A DNA stretch of 64,000 nt from Bryobacterales bacterium. GTDB taxonomy: Bacteria > Acidobacteriota > Terriglobia > Bryobacterales > Bryobacteraceae. The translations under genes and the position numbers were made by a program. The notes under the pieces were generated by a model. That model worked only from the letters and a program-made list of their open reading frames with translations, ran no database searches and was not told the DNA's origin. This document shows, piece by piece, positions 17,375 through 36,727 of this stretch; the stretch's first letter is position 1; each line of letters starts with the position of its first letter. Location of the stretch: positions 1 through 64,000 of the forward strand of contig PMOK01000042.1 of NCBI GenBank assembly GCA_003162425.1. The letters are read 5' to 3'.

Positions 17375-20164
17375 CTATTCGACCGCCAGGATCGCGGGCG
17401 GACTGGATACTCCGCCGATCGTAATCACAATGGGAACCGTCGGCGGAGGAGAAAAGAGGTTCGGTATCCGCACGTTGATCTGGAAAACGCCGGATACCGA
17501 CCCCGGCGCGGAACCGGCGTAAGTAACAACTGCATCGACGTAATTTATCTGCACTGAGACGGGCAGCAGCGTAAATTGAGCCAGCGGACTTGTTGGCCAA
17601 ATACCGCCATCCACGCCGGGCGGACTCATTGCTCCTCCTCCCGTGCCGTAGAACGTCACCACGCTTCCCCGTTTTGCTGGATTGGTTGGCGAGTTGGGCG
17701 TGCCGTCCGCGTTTGTTATCGCGGCTAGCTGTGTAGTAGGATTCGCCAGGAAAATCCCGGGGACGGTCTGATTCAATAAGACGGAACCGTTGATGGAAAC
17801 GCCGTTATACGTTACTTCAACGGATGTACCGGGATTGGGCGAGCCGCTGCCGGTTTCCCACGGAACCATCGCGTTGATCTGCTCGGACTGCACGTAGAGC
17901 AACGCGGCCGGTTGATTGCCGAACAATACTTGCACGCCCGCAAGTTCGGTGGGGAATCCGTTAGCGCCTACCTGCGCGTTGACTCCCGACTGCGGACCGA
18001 TGCCTTTGCCGCGCAATGTGACAATCTCCCCGGGCGAAATGGGGCCTTCAGCAAAGCTAGCAGCGTTCTGAATCGTGTAGGCGAGACAGGGAATGCTCGG
18101 ATGGTTTGGATCGTTGATAAGGATATTGGCCACAAATGCCGGGTTGGAAGCATCGACGACGCCGGGAAAGTCGGATGAAGTAGTGACGCCTGCAAGATCG
18201 ATAGATCCGCCACCCAGCGCGACCACCGCGGACGCGCTATCCGCACCCGACCCTCCCAGATAAGTCGCTCCGATGACCGTTCCATCCGGGGCGAATTCCG
18301 CAGCGAAGATGTCGCTCGCCCCTCCGTGGCTACACGCCTGATACGCGCCCGCCGTGGTTGGAAATCCATACGAGGCTCCGCCCACCACATAAGCATTTCC
18401 GGCGCTGTCAATGTCCAGGGACGAAGCGCCATTGATGTAGGTGGAATAAACCAATGCAGAACCGCCCGCATTCAGCTTCGACAGAACGTCCAGGGTGCCG
18501 CCGCCGGTCGATGCCCACGGCGCGGACGGCCCGGTTGGCTGGAAAGCACCTGGGGTAACCGGGAAATCGCTCGCGATGGTCGTGCCAAGTACGATAGCGT
18601 TCCCTTGCGAGTCCACCTTGATTGCCATGCCCCCGGCTTCTGAACTCCCGGTTGAGCCAAGGAAGGTGGAGTAGACCAGGCTAGCTCCAGAAGGCGCGAT
18701 CTTGGAAACGAAAATCCCGATCGGCGCCGGCAGTTTCGTTTGAAAGGCTCCGGGCGTCGTGGGAAAATCCGGCGACGCGGCAAAGCCGGTTACGTAGGCG
18801 TTTCCAGAGGCATCGACAGCGATGTTAGATACTGAGTCTCCGATGTTTGGCGTGCCGCTTCCACCAAGATAGGTCCCGTAAACCAGGGCCGTGCCGGCCG
18901 CGTTAAGTTTCGCGACAACACCGGTGGATCCTGGGTTCGCGCTCGAGGTCTGAAGAGCGCCGGGAGTAACCGGAAAAGGAGCGCCCATAACATTGGTGTT
19001 GCCCACAAAATAGGCGCTTCCTTGCCCATCTATTGCAATTCCATCTACTGCCACCGGGATGTATGTGGAGTACACGAGCTTACTCCCCGCCGGATTGAGC
19101 TTGGTAATGAAACCACTCCCGTTTGGGTTGCGGAACGCGGCGTCGGGTGTCGTCGGGAAATTGTTCTGGGTTGTGCCGGCAAAAGTTGTGCCGCCTATAT
19201 AAACACTACCCGACGAATCTGCGGCGATGGAGCTTCCGCTGTCAAAGCCGTCTCCGCCCAAATAGGTGGCGTAAACAATTTGCCCCATCGCGTCAAGCTT
19301 AATGACGAACGCATCTGGGCACGGAAAGTCACTCGGTCCTCCGGGGCCGATGCTAAAAGCCACGCAAGTCCCGCCGCCATAAGCCGGCTGTACTGCTCCC
19401 ACTGTGGTCGGAAGAATCGACGACGATGTCTGACCAGTGATATACAAGTTCCCCTCTGGATCGCCCGCCATCGCGTCGACGAGAATGAGGTTTTGATCAA
19501 GTGCGAATATTACGGGATCAATGACAATCGGGTGCTTTCGATCATAACGGCCGAGCGAAAAACGAATCTCGCCATCCGCAGCCAGGCGATAGCCGCCGGC
19601 GATGAAAACGCGCTGCCCGTTGCGTTCCTGATAAACCTTCGGCTTCCGCTGGCGCAACTCGCCGGATAGAGTCTCAATTACAAGTTCACCGTTCGCGTCG
19701 AGACTCACCCGCTTGGCATCCCTCCACCGCAGACGGATCTTCGCCGGATCAGCGCCGGGCGACACTTCGAAGTCGAACTCCAGCCCCCTCTGATCGCCGT
19801 AGAACACGCAATCGATGCCCGGATAAAGGCGGGAATAACGAACGCGCCGGTAAGTTGGAATGTCCGTCTGGCTCGCTGTGCCGTGAAAATAATTGTGCCG
19901 TTCGGCCAACGGATCCAGCGCGACGGCCTGCGGTTCGGAGTTCGCGCCGGAAAAACGCAACGAAGCGCCCATTACTGTCATGCCGGAACCGCTCAACAGA
20001 TAATCGCGGGAGTTCCCGCGCGCTACAAATCGAACCGGCGGGGCAGCCTGTCCGCGATTCGGCTCGAAGGCGAGCGGATGGTTCCCGAGACCGGCCGGAA
20101 TGGAATTGCCGGCGGCATGCGCGAACAAGGCGATTAGAAAAGGAGCGTAACGGGGAAGCATCAT
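17375..20164 (-). CDS. Secreted SBBP-repeat protein with TIGR03437-type C-terminal domain
   Basis: Multiple DASGNAYVTGFAASPDFPTTPGAFQT repeats; C-terminal IQNAASFAEGPISPGEIVTLRGKGIGP; start at MMLPRYAPF behind an AGGAGGG ribosome-binding site. Confidence 0.88.
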   Translation of the reverse strand: MMLPRYAPFLIALFAHAAGNSIPAGLGNHPLAFEPNRGQAAPPVRFVARGNSRDYLLSGSGMTVMGASLRFSGANSEPQAVALDPLAERHNYFHGTASQTDIPTYRRVRYSRLYPGIDCVFYGDQRGLEFDFEVSPGADPAKIRLRWRDAKRVSLDANGELVIETLSGELRQRKPKVYQERNGQRVFIAGGYRLAADGEIRFSLGRYDRKHPIVIDPVIFALDQNLILVDAMAGDPEGNLYITGQTSSSILPTTVGAVQPAYGGGTCVAFSIGPGGPSDFPCPDAFVIKLDAMGQIVYATYLGGDGFDSGSSIAADSSGSVYIGGTTFAGTTQNNFPTTPDAAFRNPNGSGFITKLNPAGSKLVYSTYIPVAVDGIAIDGQGSAYFVGNTNVMGAPFPVTPGALQTSSANPGSTGVVAKLNAAGTALVYGTYLGGSGTPNIGDSVSNIAVDASGNAYVTGFAASPDFPTTPGAFQTKLPAPIGIFVSKIAPSGASLVYSTFLGSTGSSEAGGMAIKVDSQGNAIVLGTTIASDFPVTPGAFQPTGPSAPWASTGGGTLDVLSKLNAGGSALVYSTYINGASSLDIDSAGNAYVVGGASYGFPTTAGAYQACSHGGASDIFAAEFAPDGTVIGATYLGGSGADSASAVVALGGGSIDLAGVTTSSDFPGVVDASNPAFVANILINDPNHPSIPCLAYTIQNAASFAEGPISPGEIVTLRGKGIGPQSGVNAQVGANGFPTELAGVQVLFGNQPAALLYVQSEQINAMVPWETGSGSPNPGTSVEVTYNGVSINGSVLLNQTVPGIFLANPTTQLAAITNADGTPNSPTNPAKRGSVVTFYGTGGGAMSPPGVDGGIWPTSPLAQFTLLPVSVQINYVDAVVTYAGSAPGSVSGVFQINVRIPNLFSPPPTVPIVITIGGVSSPPAILAVE

Positions 20165-20218
20165 CCCTCCTGAGAGGTCGAAAAAGGGCGCGGATGAAAG
20201 GAGTCTATCACATCCCCC

Positions 20219-20266
20219 GTAGCGCGAGCCTCCGGCTTGCCTGGACAAGCCGGAGGCTTGTCCTAC
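20219..20266. repeat. Family C palindromic repeat, copy 1
   Basis: GTAGCGCGAGCCTCCGGCTTGCCTGGACAAGCCGGAGGCTTGTCCTAC; second copy at 26825. Confidence 0.88.
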
Positions 20267-20294
20267 ATGGTCAATGGATTTATGTATTCTAACT

Positions 20295-21146
20295 ATGTAC
20301 TCCATGGGCGCAACTCCACGAACCTTGCTCGTTGTCGACGACGATCCGTCCATTCACGAACTGATCGGCGCGATGCTCGCGGGCAAAGGCTGGGAACTGG
20401 ACCGCGCAAATAGCGGCGAGGAAGCTCTTGCGCGCCTCGATGCCCACGCCTACGATCTGGTGCTGTCCGACATCTTGATGCCCGGCATGGATGGGCTCAC
20501 TTTGCTCGGCCACATGCGGAATCGCGACCCTAATGCACGCATCCTTGTAATGACCGTCAAGAACACGTCCAGCCACATCCTGGAATCTCTGCGGCACCAG
20601 GCTACCGCTTACATCGCCAAACCCTTCGATCGCGACCTTTTGCTCGGAACGCTGGAGAACGCGCTATCCACCACCGTCCACCAGGACGACATCAAGGTAA
20701 TTTCCGACAAACCCAATTGGATATCGCTCGAAATCCGCTGCAAGCTGACCACCGCCGAACGCCTCACCCAGTTCATGCGCGAGCTGCCCAGCGACTTAAA
20801 GCCGGAAGAGCGCGAGCAGATCGCAATCGCCTTCCGGGAATTGCTAATGAACGCTATCGAGCACGGCGGCCGCCTGGACCCGGAGAAGATCGTCGATCTG
20901 AGCTACATCCGAACCGCCCGCTGCATCGTTTACTATATCCGCGACCCCGGCGAAGGCTTCTCGATGGATAACCTGGCCCACGCCGCCGTTGCCAACACTC
21001 CCGATGATCCCTTGCACCATGTCGAGCTGCGCGAGCAAACTGGAACCCGGCCGGGCGGATTCGGTTTGCTCCTGACACAGAGCTTCGCTGACGAGCTGAT
21101 CTACAGCGCGAAGGGAAACGAAGTGATCCTCATAAAGTATCTTTAG
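20295..21146 (+). CDS. Response regulator receiver fused to RsbW-like HATPase domain
   Basis: REC: VVDDDPSIHELIG, LVLSDILMPGMDG, IAKPFD; ATPase: FRELLMNAIEHGG, DPGEGF, RPGGFGLLL. Confidence 0.87.
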   Translation: MYSMGATPRTLLVVDDDPSIHELIGAMLAGKGWELDRANSGEEALARLDAHAYDLVLSDILMPGMDGLTLLGHMRNRDPNARILVMTVKNTSSHILESLRHQATAYIAKPFDRDLLLGTLENALSTTVHQDDIKVISDKPNWISLEIRCKLTTAERLTQFMRELPSDLKPEEREQIAIAFRELLMNAIEHGGRLDPEKIVDLSYIRTARCIVYYIRDPGEGFSMDNLAHAAVANTPDDPLHHVELREQTGTRPGGFGLLLTQSFADELIYSAKGNEVILIKYL

Positions 21147-21171
21147 CGACAAGAGAACAGGCAGGAACCAT

Positions 21172-21810
21172 ATGAACCCAAGCTCCTCACATGACGGCGT
21201 AGAAGCGAACCAGAATATTTCTCCGGAAATGACACATCCAAGTTATCGCGACCAGCCGCCGGAGTCGCACACCGAGCCGCCTTCGCACGATAGCGGGACG
21301 GGCAACATCGACAAGATCCGTGACATCATTTTCGGAACCCACATGCGGGATTACGAGCAGCGCTTTGCACGGCTCGAAGAAACGCTGAAAAAAGAATCTC
21401 TGGATATTCGCGAGACAACCCGGCGCCATCTGGAAGCGCTGGAGGCTTTTGTCCATAAAGAGCTGACGGCGTTGGAAGGCCGGCTCAACATCGAACGCGA
21501 TGAACGGGCGGAGAGCCAAGGCCGGCTATCGGCCGACCTCGCGACGCACTCTTCATCCCTCTTCAAGAAGATTGGCGAGGTGGAGAACCAGGAAGCTCAA
21601 GCTAAGCGCGAGATCCGCAATGATCTGCTCCAGCAATCCAAGGAACTGACTGAAGCCATCCGCGCCAAGGGTGAGGAACTGGTGGCCCTGCTGGAGCGCC
21701 GTTCTCAGGAGCTTCAACACCAGAAGACCGATCGCGCCGCGTTGGCCAGCCTTTTCTCCGAGGTGTCGCTGCGGCTGACCGATCAGTTCAAGGTGACGGG
21801 CGCGGACTAG
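21172..21810 (+). CDS. Coiled-coil protein, hypothetical
   Basis: KIRDIIFGTHMRDYEQRFARLEETLKKE followed by long charged heptad-like helix. Confidence 0.75.
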   Translation: MNPSSSHDGVEANQNISPEMTHPSYRDQPPESHTEPPSHDSGTGNIDKIRDIIFGTHMRDYEQRFARLEETLKKESLDIRETTRRHLEALEAFVHKELTALEGRLNIERDERAESQGRLSADLATHSSSLFKKIGEVENQEAQAKREIRNDLLQQSKELTEAIRAKGEELVALLERRSQELQHQKTDRAALASLFSEVSLRLTDQFKVTGAD

Positions 21811-21826
21811 TTCCCTTCCTCGGATC

Positions 21827-23395
21827 ATGCCCACCGACGGTGCAGCCAAGCGCCCAGCCGCGGACGATCAGCCGCTGGCGGAGCTGCGCGCGATCCTGCT
21901 GGGGCCGGACCGCGCAGCTTGGGAGAGCATGCGCCAGCGCCTGGACAATCCCTCGCGGCGCGCCGAAGACGTTGCCAGCGTATTGGCGGAGGCCGTCCGC
22001 CTGCGCTCCGATGCCAAGCTCCGACGCGCGCTGCAGCCACTTCTCGAGGAAGCTCTCCAGCTCTCCGTGCAATCCAATCCACGCATGCTGGCCGACGCGC
22101 TATTTCCGATTTTCGGCAAAGCCATTCGCAAAGCTATCACTGCCGAACTGGATGGAATGCTGCAATCGCTCAGCCATACGCTGGAGCAGAGATTTTCATG
22201 GCGCAGCTTGCGATGGCGATGGGAGTCCATCCGGACCGGGAAGCCGTACGCCGAGATTGTTCTCCTGCGCAGCCTGCTGTACCGCGTGGAACAGGTGTTC
22301 CTGATTCATCGCAAGACTGGCTTGCTGCTGCAGCATGCAGCGACGGACGCCGCTGAAACAAAGGATCCGGAAATGGTTTCCGGAATGCTGACCGCAATCC
22401 AGGATTTCGTTCGGGATTCCGTTAGCGTAGCCGAGGGGGAAAATCTGGAAACGGTTCGCATGGGAGACATCGGAATGGTGCTCACCTACGGCCCGGACGC
22501 GATCCTATCCGGTTTTGTGCGCGGCGTTGCGCCCCGCAATTTGAGCCGCGTATTTCAGGACACTCTGGACACCATCGAACGGGAGAAGGCCGAGGCGCTC
22601 CATTCGTTCACGGGCGAAACGTCTGAGTTTGACAGTTGCCGTCCGCGATTGGAAGCATGTCTGGCCGGCCAAGGAAAACCCGGCGAGCGGAAGGCCACAT
22701 CCCGGATGGCCGGCGCGCTTCTCTTCGGATTACCGGCGCTCGTAATCATCGCGCTGGCCGGCTGGTGGATTTATTCGGCGGCGGTGGAGCGCCGGTGGTC
22801 GAACTTCGCTCATCGCTTGAGTAGCGAGCCAGGCATCGTGCTGACCAGTTTCGAAAAGCGAGGCGGAACGCATTATCTTGCCGGACTGCGTGATCCTTTG
22901 GCGGCCGATCCCGCGGCGCTGCTCTATGCCGAGGGCCTGCCCTCTGACAAGGTCACGTTCCATTTTGAGGAATACCATTCGCTGCAGCCCAGCTTCGCGG
23001 CTCAACGCCGGCTAGTGGAGCTGAAGGAAGAGCTCCAGAGACGCGCGTTCCGCTTTCCGACTGGCAGTTCGGCAATCCCTCCCGAACAGCGATTCCTGCT
23101 GGACGACGTTGCGGCCCAAATCCTTTCGCTCATCAAGGCAGCTTCGGCGCTCGGCCGGACCATCCAGATAGAAGTTCGCGGCAATCACGACCCCGCCGGA
23201 ACGGAGCAGCTCAACTCCATGCTGGCGCGTTCGCGCGCGCAGAACGTCGAGGCTGCGCTGATTTCACTCGGTGTGCCCGCCGCCCGCTTGGCCGCGGTTC
23301 CAGAGGATAAAGAACGGGAGACGTGCGCGGCCGTCAAGGAAGAAGAGCGCCTGTTTTGCCGCAGCGCGTCGTTTCGAGTCATCGGCGTCCCGTGA
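21827..23395 (+). CDS. Membrane-anchored protein with cytoplasmic N-terminal domain, one TM helix and OmpA-like C-terminal domain
   Basis: TM segment GALLFGLPALVIIALAGWWIYSAA; OmpA-like IQIEVRGNHDPAGTEQLNSMLARSRAQNVEAALISLGVPAARL. Confidence 0.83.
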   Translation: MPTDGAAKRPAADDQPLAELRAILLGPDRAAWESMRQRLDNPSRRAEDVASVLAEAVRLRSDAKLRRALQPLLEEALQLSVQSNPRMLADALFPIFGKAIRKAITAELDGMLQSLSHTLEQRFSWRSLRWRWESIRTGKPYAEIVLLRSLLYRVEQVFLIHRKTGLLLQHAATDAAETKDPEMVSGMLTAIQDFVRDSVSVAEGENLETVRMGDIGMVLTYGPDAILSGFVRGVAPRNLSRVFQDTLDTIEREKAEALHSFTGETSEFDSCRPRLEACLAGQGKPGERKATSRMAGALLFGLPALVIIALAGWWIYSAAVERRWSNFAHRLSSEPGIVLTSFEKRGGTHYLAGLRDPLAADPAALLYAEGLPSDKVTFHFEEYHSLQPSFAAQRRLVELKEELQRRAFRFPTGSSAIPPEQRFLLDDVAAQILSLIKAASALGRTIQIEVRGNHDPAGTEQLNSMLARSRAQNVEAALISLGVPAARLAAVPEDKERETCAAVKEEERLFCRSASFRVIGVP

Positions 23396-23400
23396 CGCGA

Positions 23401-23437
23401 ACTCTCCTTACAGAGCTCGCGACCGTGAGGGAGTTGC
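23401..23437 (-). repeat. Family G repeat, intergenic copy (diverged)
   Basis: Reverse complement contains CTCCCTCACGGTCGCG as in the copy at 10428. Confidence 0.6.
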
Positions 23438-23476
23438 CATGGGCCTGCTGGCCGACCAAAGGTGATGAAGACGCCC

Positions 23477-23588
23477 GTGGCGCACGCACTCCTCGGTGCC
23501 GCGTTCACACTCGTGTGAACGCCTTGGGCTCGGTCGCTACGGGTGTTCGCAAGAGTGCGAACACGGCACGCAGGAGTGCGTGCGCCAC
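23477..23588 (+). repeat. Family B nested palindromic element, copy B2
   Basis: GTGGCGCACGCACT...GTGCCGCGTTCACACTCGTGTGAAC...GTTCGCAAGAGTGCGAACACGGCACGCAGGAGTGCGTGCGCCAC. Confidence 0.92.
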
Positions 23589-23615
23589 GGGTATCTTCAA
23601 CGGAGTCGGTGCACG

Positions 23616-24131
23616 ATGTTGAAGAAGAAAATCTGCATGGTGGGCCAGTTCGGCGTCGGAAAAACCAGCCTGGTTCGCCGTTTCGTGGACAGCATTTTCG
23701 ATGAGCGCTACCTCACTACGATCGGCGTCAAGATCGACCGCAAGGACGTCAGCGTCGATGGCAAATCTCTCACGCTGATGCTTTGGGATCTGGCTGGCGA
23801 GGACGATCTCGCGCAACTCAACGTGTCCCATCTACGCGGGGCGTCCGGTTATATTCTGGTAGCCGACGGCTGCCGCGCCTCCACGCTCGAAAAAGCGGCC
23901 GAGCTGCAACAACGGATCACACAAACGCTGGGTCCGATACCATTCGTTCTGGTTGTGAATAAGGCTGATCTACGTGACCAGTGGGAAGTGCAAAGCTCAC
24001 AGGTGGCACAATACGGTTGGCCCACTTTTGAAACCAGCGCCAAAGCCGGAAGCGGTGTGGAAGAAATGTTCCTTGGGCTGGCCGCGATATTGATCCGCAG
24101 CCATGCGGCGAGCGAGGCTCCCGGCCAGTGA
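23616..24131 (+). CDS. Rab/Ras-like small GTPase
   Basis: G1 GQFGVGKTS, switch I DERYLTTIGVKI, G3 WDLAGED, G4 NKAD, G5 TSAK. Start moved downstream of repeat B2. Confidence 0.92.
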   Translation: MLKKKICMVGQFGVGKTSLVRRFVDSIFDERYLTTIGVKIDRKDVSVDGKSLTLMLWDLAGEDDLAQLNVSHLRGASGYILVADGCRASTLEKAAELQQRITQTLGPIPFVLVVNKADLRDQWEVQSSQVAQYGWPTFETSAKAGSGVEEMFLGLAAILIRSHAASEAPGQ

Positions 24132-25975
24132 GCCCCTCAGCCCACTTGGATCTGCTGGCCGCGCTCGGCTATGCCGTGTTCGAGCAATCGACCGATGGAT
24201 CGTTCCATTCATTGGGAGACGCTCCTGAATGGCTCCCGGCCGGTTCCCTCATGGAAGCCTTCCCATTCCTTGAGGTTTTCCTTCCGGATGCCGAAGCGTT
24301 TTGGGCTGATCCTGCTCGGGACCATTCCACGCTTCCTTCTGACTTCTGGACACAGACGGACGCCCGTGGGAACAATCTGCACTTCTGCGCAATTGCAGTT
24401 GCCGGGGAGCAGAAGCTTCTACTCATCGAACGCACTCGGCTTCGTTTTGAGCAAACGCAGGCCTTCGTGCAATACGCGCACCAGACAAAGCTGGCGCACG
24501 ACGAAATCGCCCGGCTGGGCCGTGAACTACAGCGTGCCACTGAGGCCAAAAGCGAGTTTCTGGCTCGCATGAGCCATGAGATCCGGACACCGATGAACGC
24601 TCTGCTGGGCGTTGCTGAGTTGCTTTCGGAAACTCCGTTGAATGCCGAACAGGGTGAGTATGTGCGCATCTTCCGGCGCGCCGGCGATAATCTGCTGAAC
24701 GTCATCAACGACATTCTGGACTTCTCGAAGATCGAAGCCGGTCAGGTAGAACTCGAATACATCGCATTCGACCTCGCCGATGTCGTCCAAGAAGCGATCG
24801 AGATCATCGGAGTCCGGGCGCGCGCCAAGGGCCTTTGCTTGAACTCCGACATTCGGCCGGAAGTTCCGCCGCGTTTGATGGGTGACCCCGGCCGCCTGCG
24901 GCAGATTCTCCTGAACCTGCTGAGCAACGCCGTCAAATTCACGGATCGCGGGGGAATCACCGTGCGGGTGAAACCCGATGCGGACCAGCCCGCGCCGTGT
25001 ACGCTTCATTTCACGGTCCGCGATACAGGTGTCGGAATTCCGTTCGATCGCGTCTCCACCATCTTCGACAGTTTCACGCAGGCAGATGCCTCCACAACGC
25101 GGAAATATGGCGGCACAGGCCTGGGATTGGCGATCTCCAAGCGGTTCGTCGAGCTGATGGGTGGACGAATTTGGGCCGAAAGCACGCCCGGCGATGGTAG
25201 CACTATCCACTTCACGGCGCGCTTCTCGGTCGCCGAAACAACCACGGCACTGGAAGCCCGCGCCCCGAAAGCAACCGCTCCGGCCGCTCTCGCAAATCGT
25301 GCTTTGCGAATTCTCCTGGCGGACGACTCGGAAGACAATCGTTTTCTGGTGCGCGGATATCTGCGAGACACAGGCTGCGTGATTGACGAAGTGACGAATG
25401 GTGCGGAAGTGGTGGAGAAGTTCAAGGGCGGCGCTTACGATATGGTCCTAATGGACGCGGAGATGCCCGTGATGGATGGCTATTCGGCCACTCGCGCAAT
25501 GCGGGCGCTAGAAAGCGAGCGCACAGGCCCGCCGACACCTATACTCGCTCTGACGGCGCACGCTCTGAAGGAAGCGAGAGACCGAAGCATCGAGGCAGGC
25601 TGTACCGACCATCTGACGAAGCCGATCACGAAAACGGCGTTGCTGGAAGCGGTCCACCGGTATGCACCAGAGCATCCGAACGCCGGACGAATCCATGTTG
25701 CGGTGGAATCCTGGCTCAAACCGGTAATTCCCGCATATCTCGAAAAGCGCAGAGGCGATGTCGCAAAGCTGCGATTCGCGCTCGATCAGGGCGACTATGC
25801 CACCATCCGCACATTGGGTCACCAGATGGCCGGTTCCGGCGCGGGCTATGGGTTCGCGGAGATTACTGAGATCGGCGGCACGCTTGAAGAATCAGCGCTG
25901 GCCGGAGATGCCGCGCGAATTCGCGATGGAGTGGACGCGCTGGATCGGTACTTGAACAACATCGTAACCGAGTAG
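24128..25975 (+). CDS. Hybrid histidine kinase: HisKA-HATPase-REC-Hpt
   Basis: FLARMSHEIRTPMNALLG; RQILLNLLSNAVKFTD; REC MVLMDAEMPVMDG; Hpt IRTLGHQMAGSGAGYGF; overlaps the GTPase stop. Confidence 0.92.
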   Translation: MSPSAHLDLLAALGYAVFEQSTDGSFHSLGDAPEWLPAGSLMEAFPFLEVFLPDAEAFWADPARDHSTLPSDFWTQTDARGNNLHFCAIAVAGEQKLLLIERTRLRFEQTQAFVQYAHQTKLAHDEIARLGRELQRATEAKSEFLARMSHEIRTPMNALLGVAELLSETPLNAEQGEYVRIFRRAGDNLLNVINDILDFSKIEAGQVELEYIAFDLADVVQEAIEIIGVRARAKGLCLNSDIRPEVPPRLMGDPGRLRQILLNLLSNAVKFTDRGGITVRVKPDADQPAPCTLHFTVRDTGVGIPFDRVSTIFDSFTQADASTTRKYGGTGLGLAISKRFVELMGGRIWAESTPGDGSTIHFTARFSVAETTTALEARAPKATAPAALANRALRILLADDSEDNRFLVRGYLRDTGCVIDEVTNGAEVVEKFKGGAYDMVLMDAEMPVMDGYSATRAMRALESERTGPPTPILALTAHALKEARDRSIEAGCTDHLTKPITKTALLEAVHRYAPEHPNAGRIHVAVESWLKPVIPAYLEKRRGDVAKLRFALDQGDYATIRTLGHQMAGSGAGYGFAEITEIGGTLEESALAGDAARIRDGVDALDRYLNNIVTE

Positions 25976-28069: not shown

Positions 28070-28150
28070 TCCGCGATAGTCTGCTACAATCCTACCAACG
28101 CGTCCTGCCGGGCACCGAATGCGGTGCCATTTCTGAATTCCAGGGAATAT

Positions 28151-30409
28151 ATGACGACATTTCGTTTTGCGGGCGTGTTATTTCTGGCGGCGTCGTACCT
28201 TGCCGGCGCGCAACTCACCAGTTCCACTTACCTCAGGTCCTCTTTCACCCCAGCGGCCATTGCGACAGACTCGACCGGCAACGTCTACATAGTTGGGAAC
28301 GTCGCGCTCGATTCAGTGACCGGCCGGCAAGGGGTCCTCGTGGTCAAGCTGAACCCGCAAGGCACCGAGTACCTGTATGAAACATATATCAGCGGATCCA
28401 CAGGCGAATACACCGGCGAATACACCGGCGGCATCGCAGTTGATGGCACAGGTAACGCATACATTGCCGGAACGACCACGTCGTCCGACTTCCCACTGAC
28501 GCCCGGCGGCGCGCTCACCTCGCCCTCCACGGGATCAAATGACCCGCGCCCATTCCTTGTCAGGCTCGATTCCAACGGCATCATTACGCTGTCCACAATC
28601 TTCGGCGGCCAAGGCGGCGCAGGTGCGGTAGTTATCGCTGCTGACGGCAACATTCTTGTGAGTGGTGGAAGCGGCCAGAAAGGGTTTCCATCCACTCCAG
28701 GCGCCTACAGCGTCCCGGACACAACTGGTCGCCCTTTCCTGGTTAAGCTCGATCCCGCCACGCCCAAGATTCTGTTTTCGGCCACCGGAATTGGCGGAAC
28801 TTCCATAGCCCTGGACACCGCGGGCGACATCTTTGTTTCCGGGTTGACCGGATTTCCATCAGACTACCCAACCACTCCCGGCGCTTACCAGACCCAATTC
28901 TACGAAAATCTGGTCTGCGAATTCCCTTGCCATTTTTATTCTCCAGGCCCGAGTCAGTACGTCACCAAAATCGACCCCACTGGATCGAAGTTGATTTATT
29001 CCACAGGCCTCAATCCCCCCAATGATGACGGACTGGATTATAACGGCGACGATCCCAACCTTATCGCTATGACGAACGCAGGCCTAGTGGTAGACGCCGC
29101 CGGCAACGCTTACGTCACCGGAGTGACGGTATATCCGCATTACCCGTTCACCACGCCTCCTCCGCCCAATCTGGTGACCGTTCCCTTTGTGAGCAAACTG
29201 GATCCTACTGGCTCGAAGCTGCTCTTTTCGGTACCAGCCGGCGGATCCAGCCTTCAGTTGGATGAATCGGGAAACCTGGATGCCGCAGGCATTCTATACG
29301 GCCCCGTTCCTCCGTCCTCGGCGGCCACCAGCGCTATGGTCGGGTTGCCGGCCAATTTTCCAAGTCTATGCCTGCCCAATAACGTCACCAGCTTCAATGA
29401 GGGCTACCTGCAGCAACTGGATCTAACTACGGGAACTGTGCGGTCTGTCCAGTTCCTGGATGGTTCTATCGTTAGTTCCGCGGTGATTGCGCTAGGATCG
29501 GAGGGCAAGGTTTGGATGAGCGGAGCGACATCGCGTCCCGACATTCCATTCACGCCTAATCCGTTATTTCCGGCCAATCTCGGACCAGCGCCGCAGCCTG
29601 GCGCGTATCTTGCTTCGGTTACATTCGCGCAGTCCACGCCGGGAGGTCCCCAGCTAGGCTGCGTCCTGGACAGCGCGGATATGATGCACGCGGGCCCGAT
29701 CGGGCCCGGCCAGCTTCTCACCCTTATGGGAACGAACCTCGGTCCGGAGAAAGGCGTGAGGGCGCCCGCCGGAGGATCCACATCGCTCGCGGGTGCGGCG
29801 GTCACGTTCGACGATACTCCCGCCAAGCTGCTCTATGTCTCCTCGTCTCAGATCAATGTGGCTGTTCCCGGTCTATCACAAACCAGCGCCTTCATAGAAC
29901 CCAGCTCTGTGATGCAGATCAAAGTGAACGGCGCCCCAGCCGCGGTTAGACTTTTTCCTGTAACATCCAGCACCCCGTCGCTCTTTGCCGATCTATTCGC
30001 CAGCCTGCCGTCCTCATGTGCACAGACCTCTGTACCACAGGCCCTCGCGCGCAACGCCGATGGATCCATCAACTCCTGCTTACAGCCCTCAAAACCCGGA
30101 TCGACGATTTCTTTGTACCTGAACGGCGGAGGTATAGGTTTCTTTTCGATTTTTGATTGGGATGTGGTGATCAACGGTGGGTCGGCTGAAGTGGTGAATG
30201 TCACCAACGAAAACGAGTGGGTGACCCGAGTGGATGTGCGCCTACCAGCGAGCGTGACCTCGACGCCAGGGATGGCCCAGTACTTCAACGTGACGATGCG
30301 CGCGAGCGCGAGCGGTCTGCCAGTCGGCCCGCTTTATCTGACGCCGGACCTATCGCCCAGTCTCCCCGCCGAAACTTCACAGCCGCTCACTATCTGGGTT
30401 GAGCCATAG
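28151..30409 (+). CDS. Secreted SBBP-repeat protein with TIGR03437-type C-terminal domain
   Basis: GNAYIAGTTTSSDFPLTPGGAL repeats; SADMMHAGPIGPGQLLTLMGTNLGPEKG. Confidence 0.85.
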   Translation: MTTFRFAGVLFLAASYLAGAQLTSSTYLRSSFTPAAIATDSTGNVYIVGNVALDSVTGRQGVLVVKLNPQGTEYLYETYISGSTGEYTGEYTGGIAVDGTGNAYIAGTTTSSDFPLTPGGALTSPSTGSNDPRPFLVRLDSNGIITLSTIFGGQGGAGAVVIAADGNILVSGGSGQKGFPSTPGAYSVPDTTGRPFLVKLDPATPKILFSATGIGGTSIALDTAGDIFVSGLTGFPSDYPTTPGAYQTQFYENLVCEFPCHFYSPGPSQYVTKIDPTGSKLIYSTGLNPPNDDGLDYNGDDPNLIAMTNAGLVVDAAGNAYVTGVTVYPHYPFTTPPPPNLVTVPFVSKLDPTGSKLLFSVPAGGSSLQLDESGNLDAAGILYGPVPPSSAATSAMVGLPANFPSLCLPNNVTSFNEGYLQQLDLTTGTVRSVQFLDGSIVSSAVIALGSEGKVWMSGATSRPDIPFTPNPLFPANLGPAPQPGAYLASVTFAQSTPGGPQLGCVLDSADMMHAGPIGPGQLLTLMGTNLGPEKGVRAPAGGSTSLAGAAVTFDDTPAKLLYVSSSQINVAVPGLSQTSAFIEPSSVMQIKVNGAPAAVRLFPVTSSTPSLFADLFASLPSSCAQTSVPQALARNADGSINSCLQPSKPGSTISLYLNGGGIGFFSIFDWDVVINGGSAEVVNVTNENEWVTRVDVRLPASVTSTPGMAQYFNVTMRASASGLPVGPLYLTPDLSPSLPAETSQPLTIWVEP

Positions 30410-36611: not shown

Positions 36612-36725
36612 GTGGCGCACGCACTTCTGCGTGCCGCGTTCACACTCGTGTGAAGGCCATGAACATAGTTCTTCCTAATGTGTTCGCAAGAGTGCGAACA
36701 CGGCACGCACGAGTGGGTGCGCCAC
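36612..36725 (+). repeat. Family B nested palindromic element, copy B3
   Basis: GTGGCGCACGCACTTCTGCGTGCCGCGTTCACACTCGTGTGAA...GTGTTCGCAAGAGTGCGAACACGGCACGCACGAGTGGGTGCGCCAC. Confidence 0.92.
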
Positions 36726-36727
36726 GA

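Follow-up and report, generated by a model that had tools for sequence, protein, structure and literature searches.

A Group 1 Rup locus in a Bryobacterales bacterium and a predicted longin-like domain beside its Rab-like GTPase

What does a Rab-like GTPase do in a bacterium when its gene stands between those of a wall-anchored membrane protein and a phosphorelay kinase? The question is raised by contig PMOK01000042.1, from a soil bacterium of the Bryobacterales (genome 8.7 Mb), of which we analysed positions 1-64000 (hereafter the window). Open reading frame calling and Pfam identified five genes in a row on the plus strand between 20295 and 25975, spaced by 25 bp (genes 1 and 2), 16 bp (genes 2 and 3) and 220 bp (genes 3 and 4), with a 4-bp overlap between genes 4 and 5. 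These genes, their domains and their spacing agreed with a preliminary description made from the DNA letters, which had read all five as one wired signalling module, matching no system that could be named, in which the GTPase could act at the envelope through the OmpA-anchored protein. We propose, at a probability of roughly 45%, that Rab-like GTPases of this kind work with a longin-like domain carried by the wall-anchored protein; this would be a bacterial counterpart of the eukaryotic Rab-longin partnership, spread over at least eight phyla and serving envelope-to-phosphorelay signalling.

A four-gene core of the Group 1 Rup family

Group 1 Rup neighbourhoods were described by computation in 2014 (Wuichet & Søgaard-Andersen, PMC4316618). 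They combine a GTPase lacking the Gln of its G3 motif, a coiled-coil protein, a signalling output protein and a protein whose conserved unknown domain is followed by a transmembrane helix and an OmpA domain. The outputs are typically c-di-GMP enzymes or histidine kinases, and their N-terminal region bears an invariant Gln that was proposed to act, perhaps, in trans. Among prokaryotic proteins, these GTPases are reportedly the closest to the Rab/Ras/Rho/Ran group (PMC4316618; PMC4915359). The same set was found here. Gene 4 (23616..24131, plus strand) encodes a single-domain GTPase (Pfam Ras, E 2e-32) whose 171 aa fall within the 150-240 aa of the group; its G1, G4 and G5 motifs are intact by eye, and its G3 motif, DLAGED, has the Asp and lacks the catalytic Gln. 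Gene 2 (21172..21810, plus strand) supplies the adjacent cytoplasmic coiled-coil protein; gene 3 (21827..23395, plus strand) supplies the protein with a conserved domain, an inner-membrane helix and an OmpA domain; and gene 5 (24128..25975, plus strand) supplies the output, with a Gln at position 115 whose equivalence to the published Gln we judged from the text of PMC4316618. There is no coupling to MglB, the genome's one Roadblock gene lying on another contig (C316). We consider it nearly certain that genes 2-5 belong to the Group 1 Rup family. The module as such had already been described by computation, and since the gene set already had a name, the preliminary interpretation was right only in part.

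A profile of gene 3 was searched against 84,980 species genomes, and the best 80 of at least 393 encoding stretches were analysed for their neighbourhoods. The coiled-coil gene lay beside the OmpA gene in 77 of the 80 loci and the GTPase gene did so in 78; the conserved N-terminal domain of gene 5 was next to the GTPase or the OmpA gene in 65, several contigs stopping before gene 5 is reached. In 60 loci the genes followed one another on one strand in the order coiled coil, OmpA, GTPase, output (26 of these with one extra gene before the output), and most of the others were subsets of this order. Going by record titles, core loci among these best 80 came from Acidobacteriota, Cyanobacteriota, Nitrospirota, Thermodesulfobacteriota, Myxococcota, Gemmatimonadota, Coatesbacteria, Latescibacterota and Pseudomonadota. 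The core spans at least eight phyla, and genes 2-5 are associated far beyond chance, which supports the view of a wired module with its GTPase at the envelope. A neighbourhood search of this type had been suggested as a check on all five genes; genes 2-5 passed it and gene 1 did not, its homologue adjoining the core in only 4 of the 80 loci (L038, L039, L040 and L082). The core comprises genes 2-5 only. That the five are unrelated neighbours might be argued from the poor conservation of gene 1 in the set and from the repeat that splits genes 3 and 4; the joint presence of genes 2-5 in distantly related phyla, which excludes chance neighbours for these four, and the fusion of two partner N-terminal domains in one locus (L097) leave that explanation a negligible probability.

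Within Acidobacteriota, a phylum absent from the list of Rup phyla in PMC4316618, occurrence was patchy (12 of 247 genomes). Cyanobacterial sequences and nitrospiral sequences each formed one side of a tree branch, and therefore old vertical descent within these two phyla is suggested; homologous loci were found in Nostoc and Ca. Nitrospira defluvii, and both phyla are named in PMC4316618. To the published picture our analysis adds the presence of the system in Bryobacterales, in a phosphorelay form (an HK-REC-Hpt output, HK being histidine kinase, with a REC-RsbW-like protein upstream), a predicted PAS-like domain at the start of the output protein, a second partner protein and the longin-like prediction for gene 3.

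Some loci departed from the usual layout. In L055 (2838-3452) and L070 (7381-7947), from Desulfobacterota-like bins, a sequence-divergent GTPase is encoded upstream, on the other strand. In a Blastocatellia bin the Rup GTPase occurs as two tandem copies (L078:10789-11921). A further Rup locus (L109) sits in a bin labelled Klebsiella pneumoniae, which is most likely a mislabelled or mixed metagenome bin.

The GTPase itself is the sole member of its family in the genome, and Rab23 is the best solved relative of the family profile (3e-38). We asked whether it could instead belong to an MglA/MglB-type polarity module, since MglA had been the comparison offered in the preliminary description and a small Ras-like GTPase does here adjoin two-component parts, as in the MglA/MglB/RomR module of Myxococcus. 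The G3 motif speaks against it: DLAGED has Asp and no Gln, not the T-x-x-G-Q of MglA, whereas MglA proteins encoded beside Roadblock genes in other Acidobacteriota carry TVPGQ. No MglB gene lies next door, the lone Roadblock gene being elsewhere in the genome, and the partners differ from those in Myxococcus. We rejected membership in the MglA family, and a polarity module of that type is very improbable. The actinobacterial conservons (CvnA-D; the Mfp system) likewise join a small GTPase to a histidine kinase; their operon also encodes a Roadblock-type protein (PMC4316618, PMC13343842). The conservon GTPase is of MglA type and its Roadblock protein is separate, whereas the present locus has a Rab-like GTPase and carries the candidate longin domain within a wall-anchored protein. 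GTPase-centred conflict systems (PMC7159879) were rejected as well, their GTPases and partners being different.

A predicted longin-like domain in the wall-anchored protein

Gene 3 encodes N-terminal helices, a conserved cytoplasmic domain, a single hydrophobic segment (residues ~295-318) and, C-terminal to this, a periplasmic OmpA peptidoglycan-binding domain (residues 410-491, Pfam E 7e-9). The OmpA match was found in the window protein and in 40 of 40 members scanned; at 522 aa the window protein is shorter than most of its Rup-locus relatives (~590 aa). The cytoplasmic domain spans residues 138-266 (22238..22624, plus strand; core ~141-259), where mean column identity is 61% over 35 members from many phyla. 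An AlphaFold model built from 40 sequences (mean pLDDT, the predicted local distance difference test, 77) placed in it a helix at 141-149, strands at 153-161 and 167-172, a helix at 181-198, strands at 209-212, 215-221 and 225-232, and a helix at 237-253. The resulting topology, α-β-β-α-β-β-β-α, follows that of longin or Roadblock domains and leads into further helices and the membrane segment. When the model was compared with a viral structure library by Foldseek, the top five matches were all OmpA-like or outer-membrane proteins, and giant-virus synaptobrevins or V-SNAREs made up six of the first 24 (ranks 6, 7, 9, 16, 19 and 24; probability 0.66-0.99). We take these SNAREs to be longin-helix-transmembrane proteins, similar in length to residues 153-333 of gene 3. 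This structural evidence makes a longin-like fold moderately likely.

Several results weigh against that assignment and against the partnership built on it. Confidence in the longin-like region of the model was mixed, and the SNARE matches had Foldseek E values of 0.007-0.13. A profile search of the PDB with the domain returned no relative, the domain consensus gave no match at all in Pfam, and the Pfam model Fuz_longin_1 was touched by only two of 35 members (best E 0.05). An hhalign comparison of the domain with 31 Acidobacteriota Roadblock proteins was not significant. The Foldseek listing against the PDB, full of OmpA C-terminal domains, was uninformative for the longin part. Moreover, our literature search, which left subscription journals mostly uncovered, found no biochemical or genetic study of any Rup system; these systems were described in 2014, no functional study was found since, and yet they occur in at least eight phyla.

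Could the domain, then, be a plain structural or ligand-binding PAS/GAF-like domain that makes no contact with the GTPase, the coiled-coil protein being the regulator instead? PAS, Roadblock and longin domains all have PAS-like folds (PMC3521125), the Roadblock sequence comparison fails, and the gene for the coiled coil is kept as steadily as that for the OmpA protein. However, the one long helix that separates the first two strands from the last three, together with a C-terminal helix, fits a longin domain better than a PAS domain, and the six viral longin SNAREs stand in the top 24 structural matches. We regard the plain PAS/GAF-like explanation as improbable, at about one part in five of our expectation. 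That the gene 3 domain binds the Rup GTPase is a tentative proposal to which we give slightly less than even odds; in known systems both Roadblock and longin domains bind small GTPases (PMC3521125).

The coiled-coil protein of gene 2 had no significant match to a Pfam family. It carries the conserved motif DKIRDIxFGxxMRxYExRFxxLE, and R50, I52, F54, G55, E108, L181 and K185 are invariant in 30 members of its family.

Were the membrane partner to carry a longin-like domain, the likeness to eukaryotic systems would be of interest. In Mon1-Ccz1, Fuz-Intu and DENN proteins, longin-type regulators serve Rabs, and here a GTPase with Rab23 as its closest solved relative is encoded beside a predicted longin-like protein; the difference is that one longin-like domain lies in a membrane protein, in place of a two-protein exchange factor, and that the longin likeness is one of predicted structure. 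Zhang et al. (PMC3521125) argued that longin domains descend from the Roadblock partners of MglA-like GTPases and extended their range to Rabs later on. For this proposed descent it would matter if a bacterial GTPase of Rab type had a longin-like domain next to it, and the timing of the meeting between Rab-type GTPases and longin-type domains would become testable in culturable bacteria such as Nostoc and Fischerella.

A candidate GTPase switch with exchangeable outputs

Gene 5 encodes HisKA-HATPase_c-REC-Hpt behind an N-terminal domain; its H-box and Hpt His are intact by eye, and the Hpt match (E 6e-5) falls just below the Pfam cut-off. The first 140 residues (24128..24547, plus strand, together with the signalling helix) are conserved across loci and formed a confident domain in the model (pLDDT 93). 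The first-ranked structural match was a designed protein that superposed poorly; the best plausible match was a PAS domain, PpsR N-Q-PAS1 (probability 1.00, E 0.003, TM-score 0.47). Because no structural match reached E 0.001, we hold the PAS-like assignment as a well-supported guess. Gln115 lies on a long exit helix (residues 105-139) that runs directly into HisKA at residue 140, where a GTPase would be well placed to bend the signalling helix. At this position 40 of 41 output proteins have Gln, while the G3 Gln position of the GTPase is Glu in 31 of 39 members, Asp in four and Gln in one; such a pairing of a G3 motif without Gln and an output that keeps one is as described in PMC4316618.

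Behind the constant N-terminal domain the C-terminal parts vary, with kinases, sigma-54 activators and HD domains. A second conserved partner, which we call p34, lies between the GTPase gene and gene 5 in many loci; it is PAS-like by look, ends in a conserved Gln pair (for example L059:11238-11639, L065:5853-6875 and L057:8542-9519) and sometimes carries a class III cyclase. Among 51 partner proteins we counted HATPase_c in 28, REC in 13, Hpt in 10, class III cyclase in eight, sigma-54 activator in seven and HD in four. In the fusion mentioned above (L097:3397-4902), p34 is joined to the gene 5 N-terminal domain, and in genome G032 (L036) it replaces that domain on a PAS-HK-REC protein. The profiles of p34 and of the gene 5 domain were co-linear, and their comparison was not significant. 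The window locus lacks p34, and the description of the Rup system in PMC4316618 does not include it.

From these parts we infer a possible chain of events. The OmpA domain would tether gene 3 to peptidoglycan, and a change in the envelope would reach the longin-like domain in the cytoplasm by way of the protein's single membrane helix. This domain would bind the Rup GTPase, with the coiled-coil protein as a scaffold, and so set the nucleotide state or the position of the GTPase. GTP-loaded Rup would then dock on the PAS-like domain of gene 5 and switch the kinase, with phosphate passing from HisKA to REC to Hpt, and the exit-helix Gln may terminate the signal by completing GTP hydrolysis. From Hpt the phosphate would probably pass on to the receiver of gene 1; the RsbW-like ATPase joined to it would in turn target a protein whose gene lies elsewhere. 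Such an arrangement would place a G-protein switch, anchored to the wall, ahead of bacterial outputs that can be exchanged. For this mechanism in outline, from envelope sensor to GTPase to swappable output, we see evenly balanced odds.

The flow could also run the other way, with gene 5 as the sensor, the phosphorelay and gene 1 controlling the GTPase, and the GTPase acting at the wall through gene 3, much as MglA in Myxococcus receives its input from the Frz-RomR branch. The conservon kinase has been drawn as the sensory input to its GTPase (PMC13343842), and a PAS-like domain in gene 5 could bind a ligand. In the sequence of gene 5, however, we saw neither a transmembrane nor a periplasmic sensor, and the N-terminal domain stays constant whereas the enzyme that follows it gives way to sigma-54 activators, HD domains or other kinases, as suits an output that receives a common signal. 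Reverse flow is unlikely, with perhaps one chance in four, and we prefer flow from the envelope to the output.

Gene 1, the palindromic repeat and the flanks

Gene 1 (20295..21146, plus strand) is an accessory gene that encodes a receiver (Response_reg, PF00072, E 1e-26) joined to an RsbW-like GHKL ATPase (HATPase_c_2, PF13581, 2e-18). Its REC Asp and Lys, N-box (ELLMNAIEHG) and DPGEGF motif are intact by eye. Phosphotransfer from the Hpt of gene 5 to this receiver is plausible because, wherever gene 1 is present, the kinase next to it ends in an Hpt; this was found in the window, L039, L040 and L082, and for L038 it follows from 89% identity to the window kinase. It is unproven because three other loci (L061, L088 and L112) have an Hpt-bearing output without gene 1. 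Counting against the mechanism in outline, no STAS partner for gene 1 is encoded on this contig; the genome has ten STAS genes.

The 220-bp gap between genes 3 and 4 had been described as containing repeats. Its size was right, and the repeats proved to be one palindromic element of 134 bp (23466..23599, assigned to neither strand), which lies outside the conserved system. Its 58-nt inverted arms are 84% complementary, and its predicted RNA fold has -106 kcal/mol (z -12.7). Repeats of this type, ~115-130 bp long and 81-100% identical, occupy at least ~40 places in the genome, a lower bound since 40 candidates were scored, and another copy lies in the window at 36612-36726. The element looks like a non-coding mobile element of the MITE (miniature inverted-repeat transposable element) or REP (repetitive extragenic palindromic) kind. 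It was probably inserted recently, because the corresponding gap is 177 bp in the close relative L038 and 3 bp in L039 and L040, where the palindrome is absent; the insertion may have weakened co-transcription of genes 3 and 4.

Two large secreted-type proteins flank the region (17375-20353, minus strand, and 28124-30409, plus strand). By look they are of the SBBP/TIGR03437 kind typical of Solibacter relatives.

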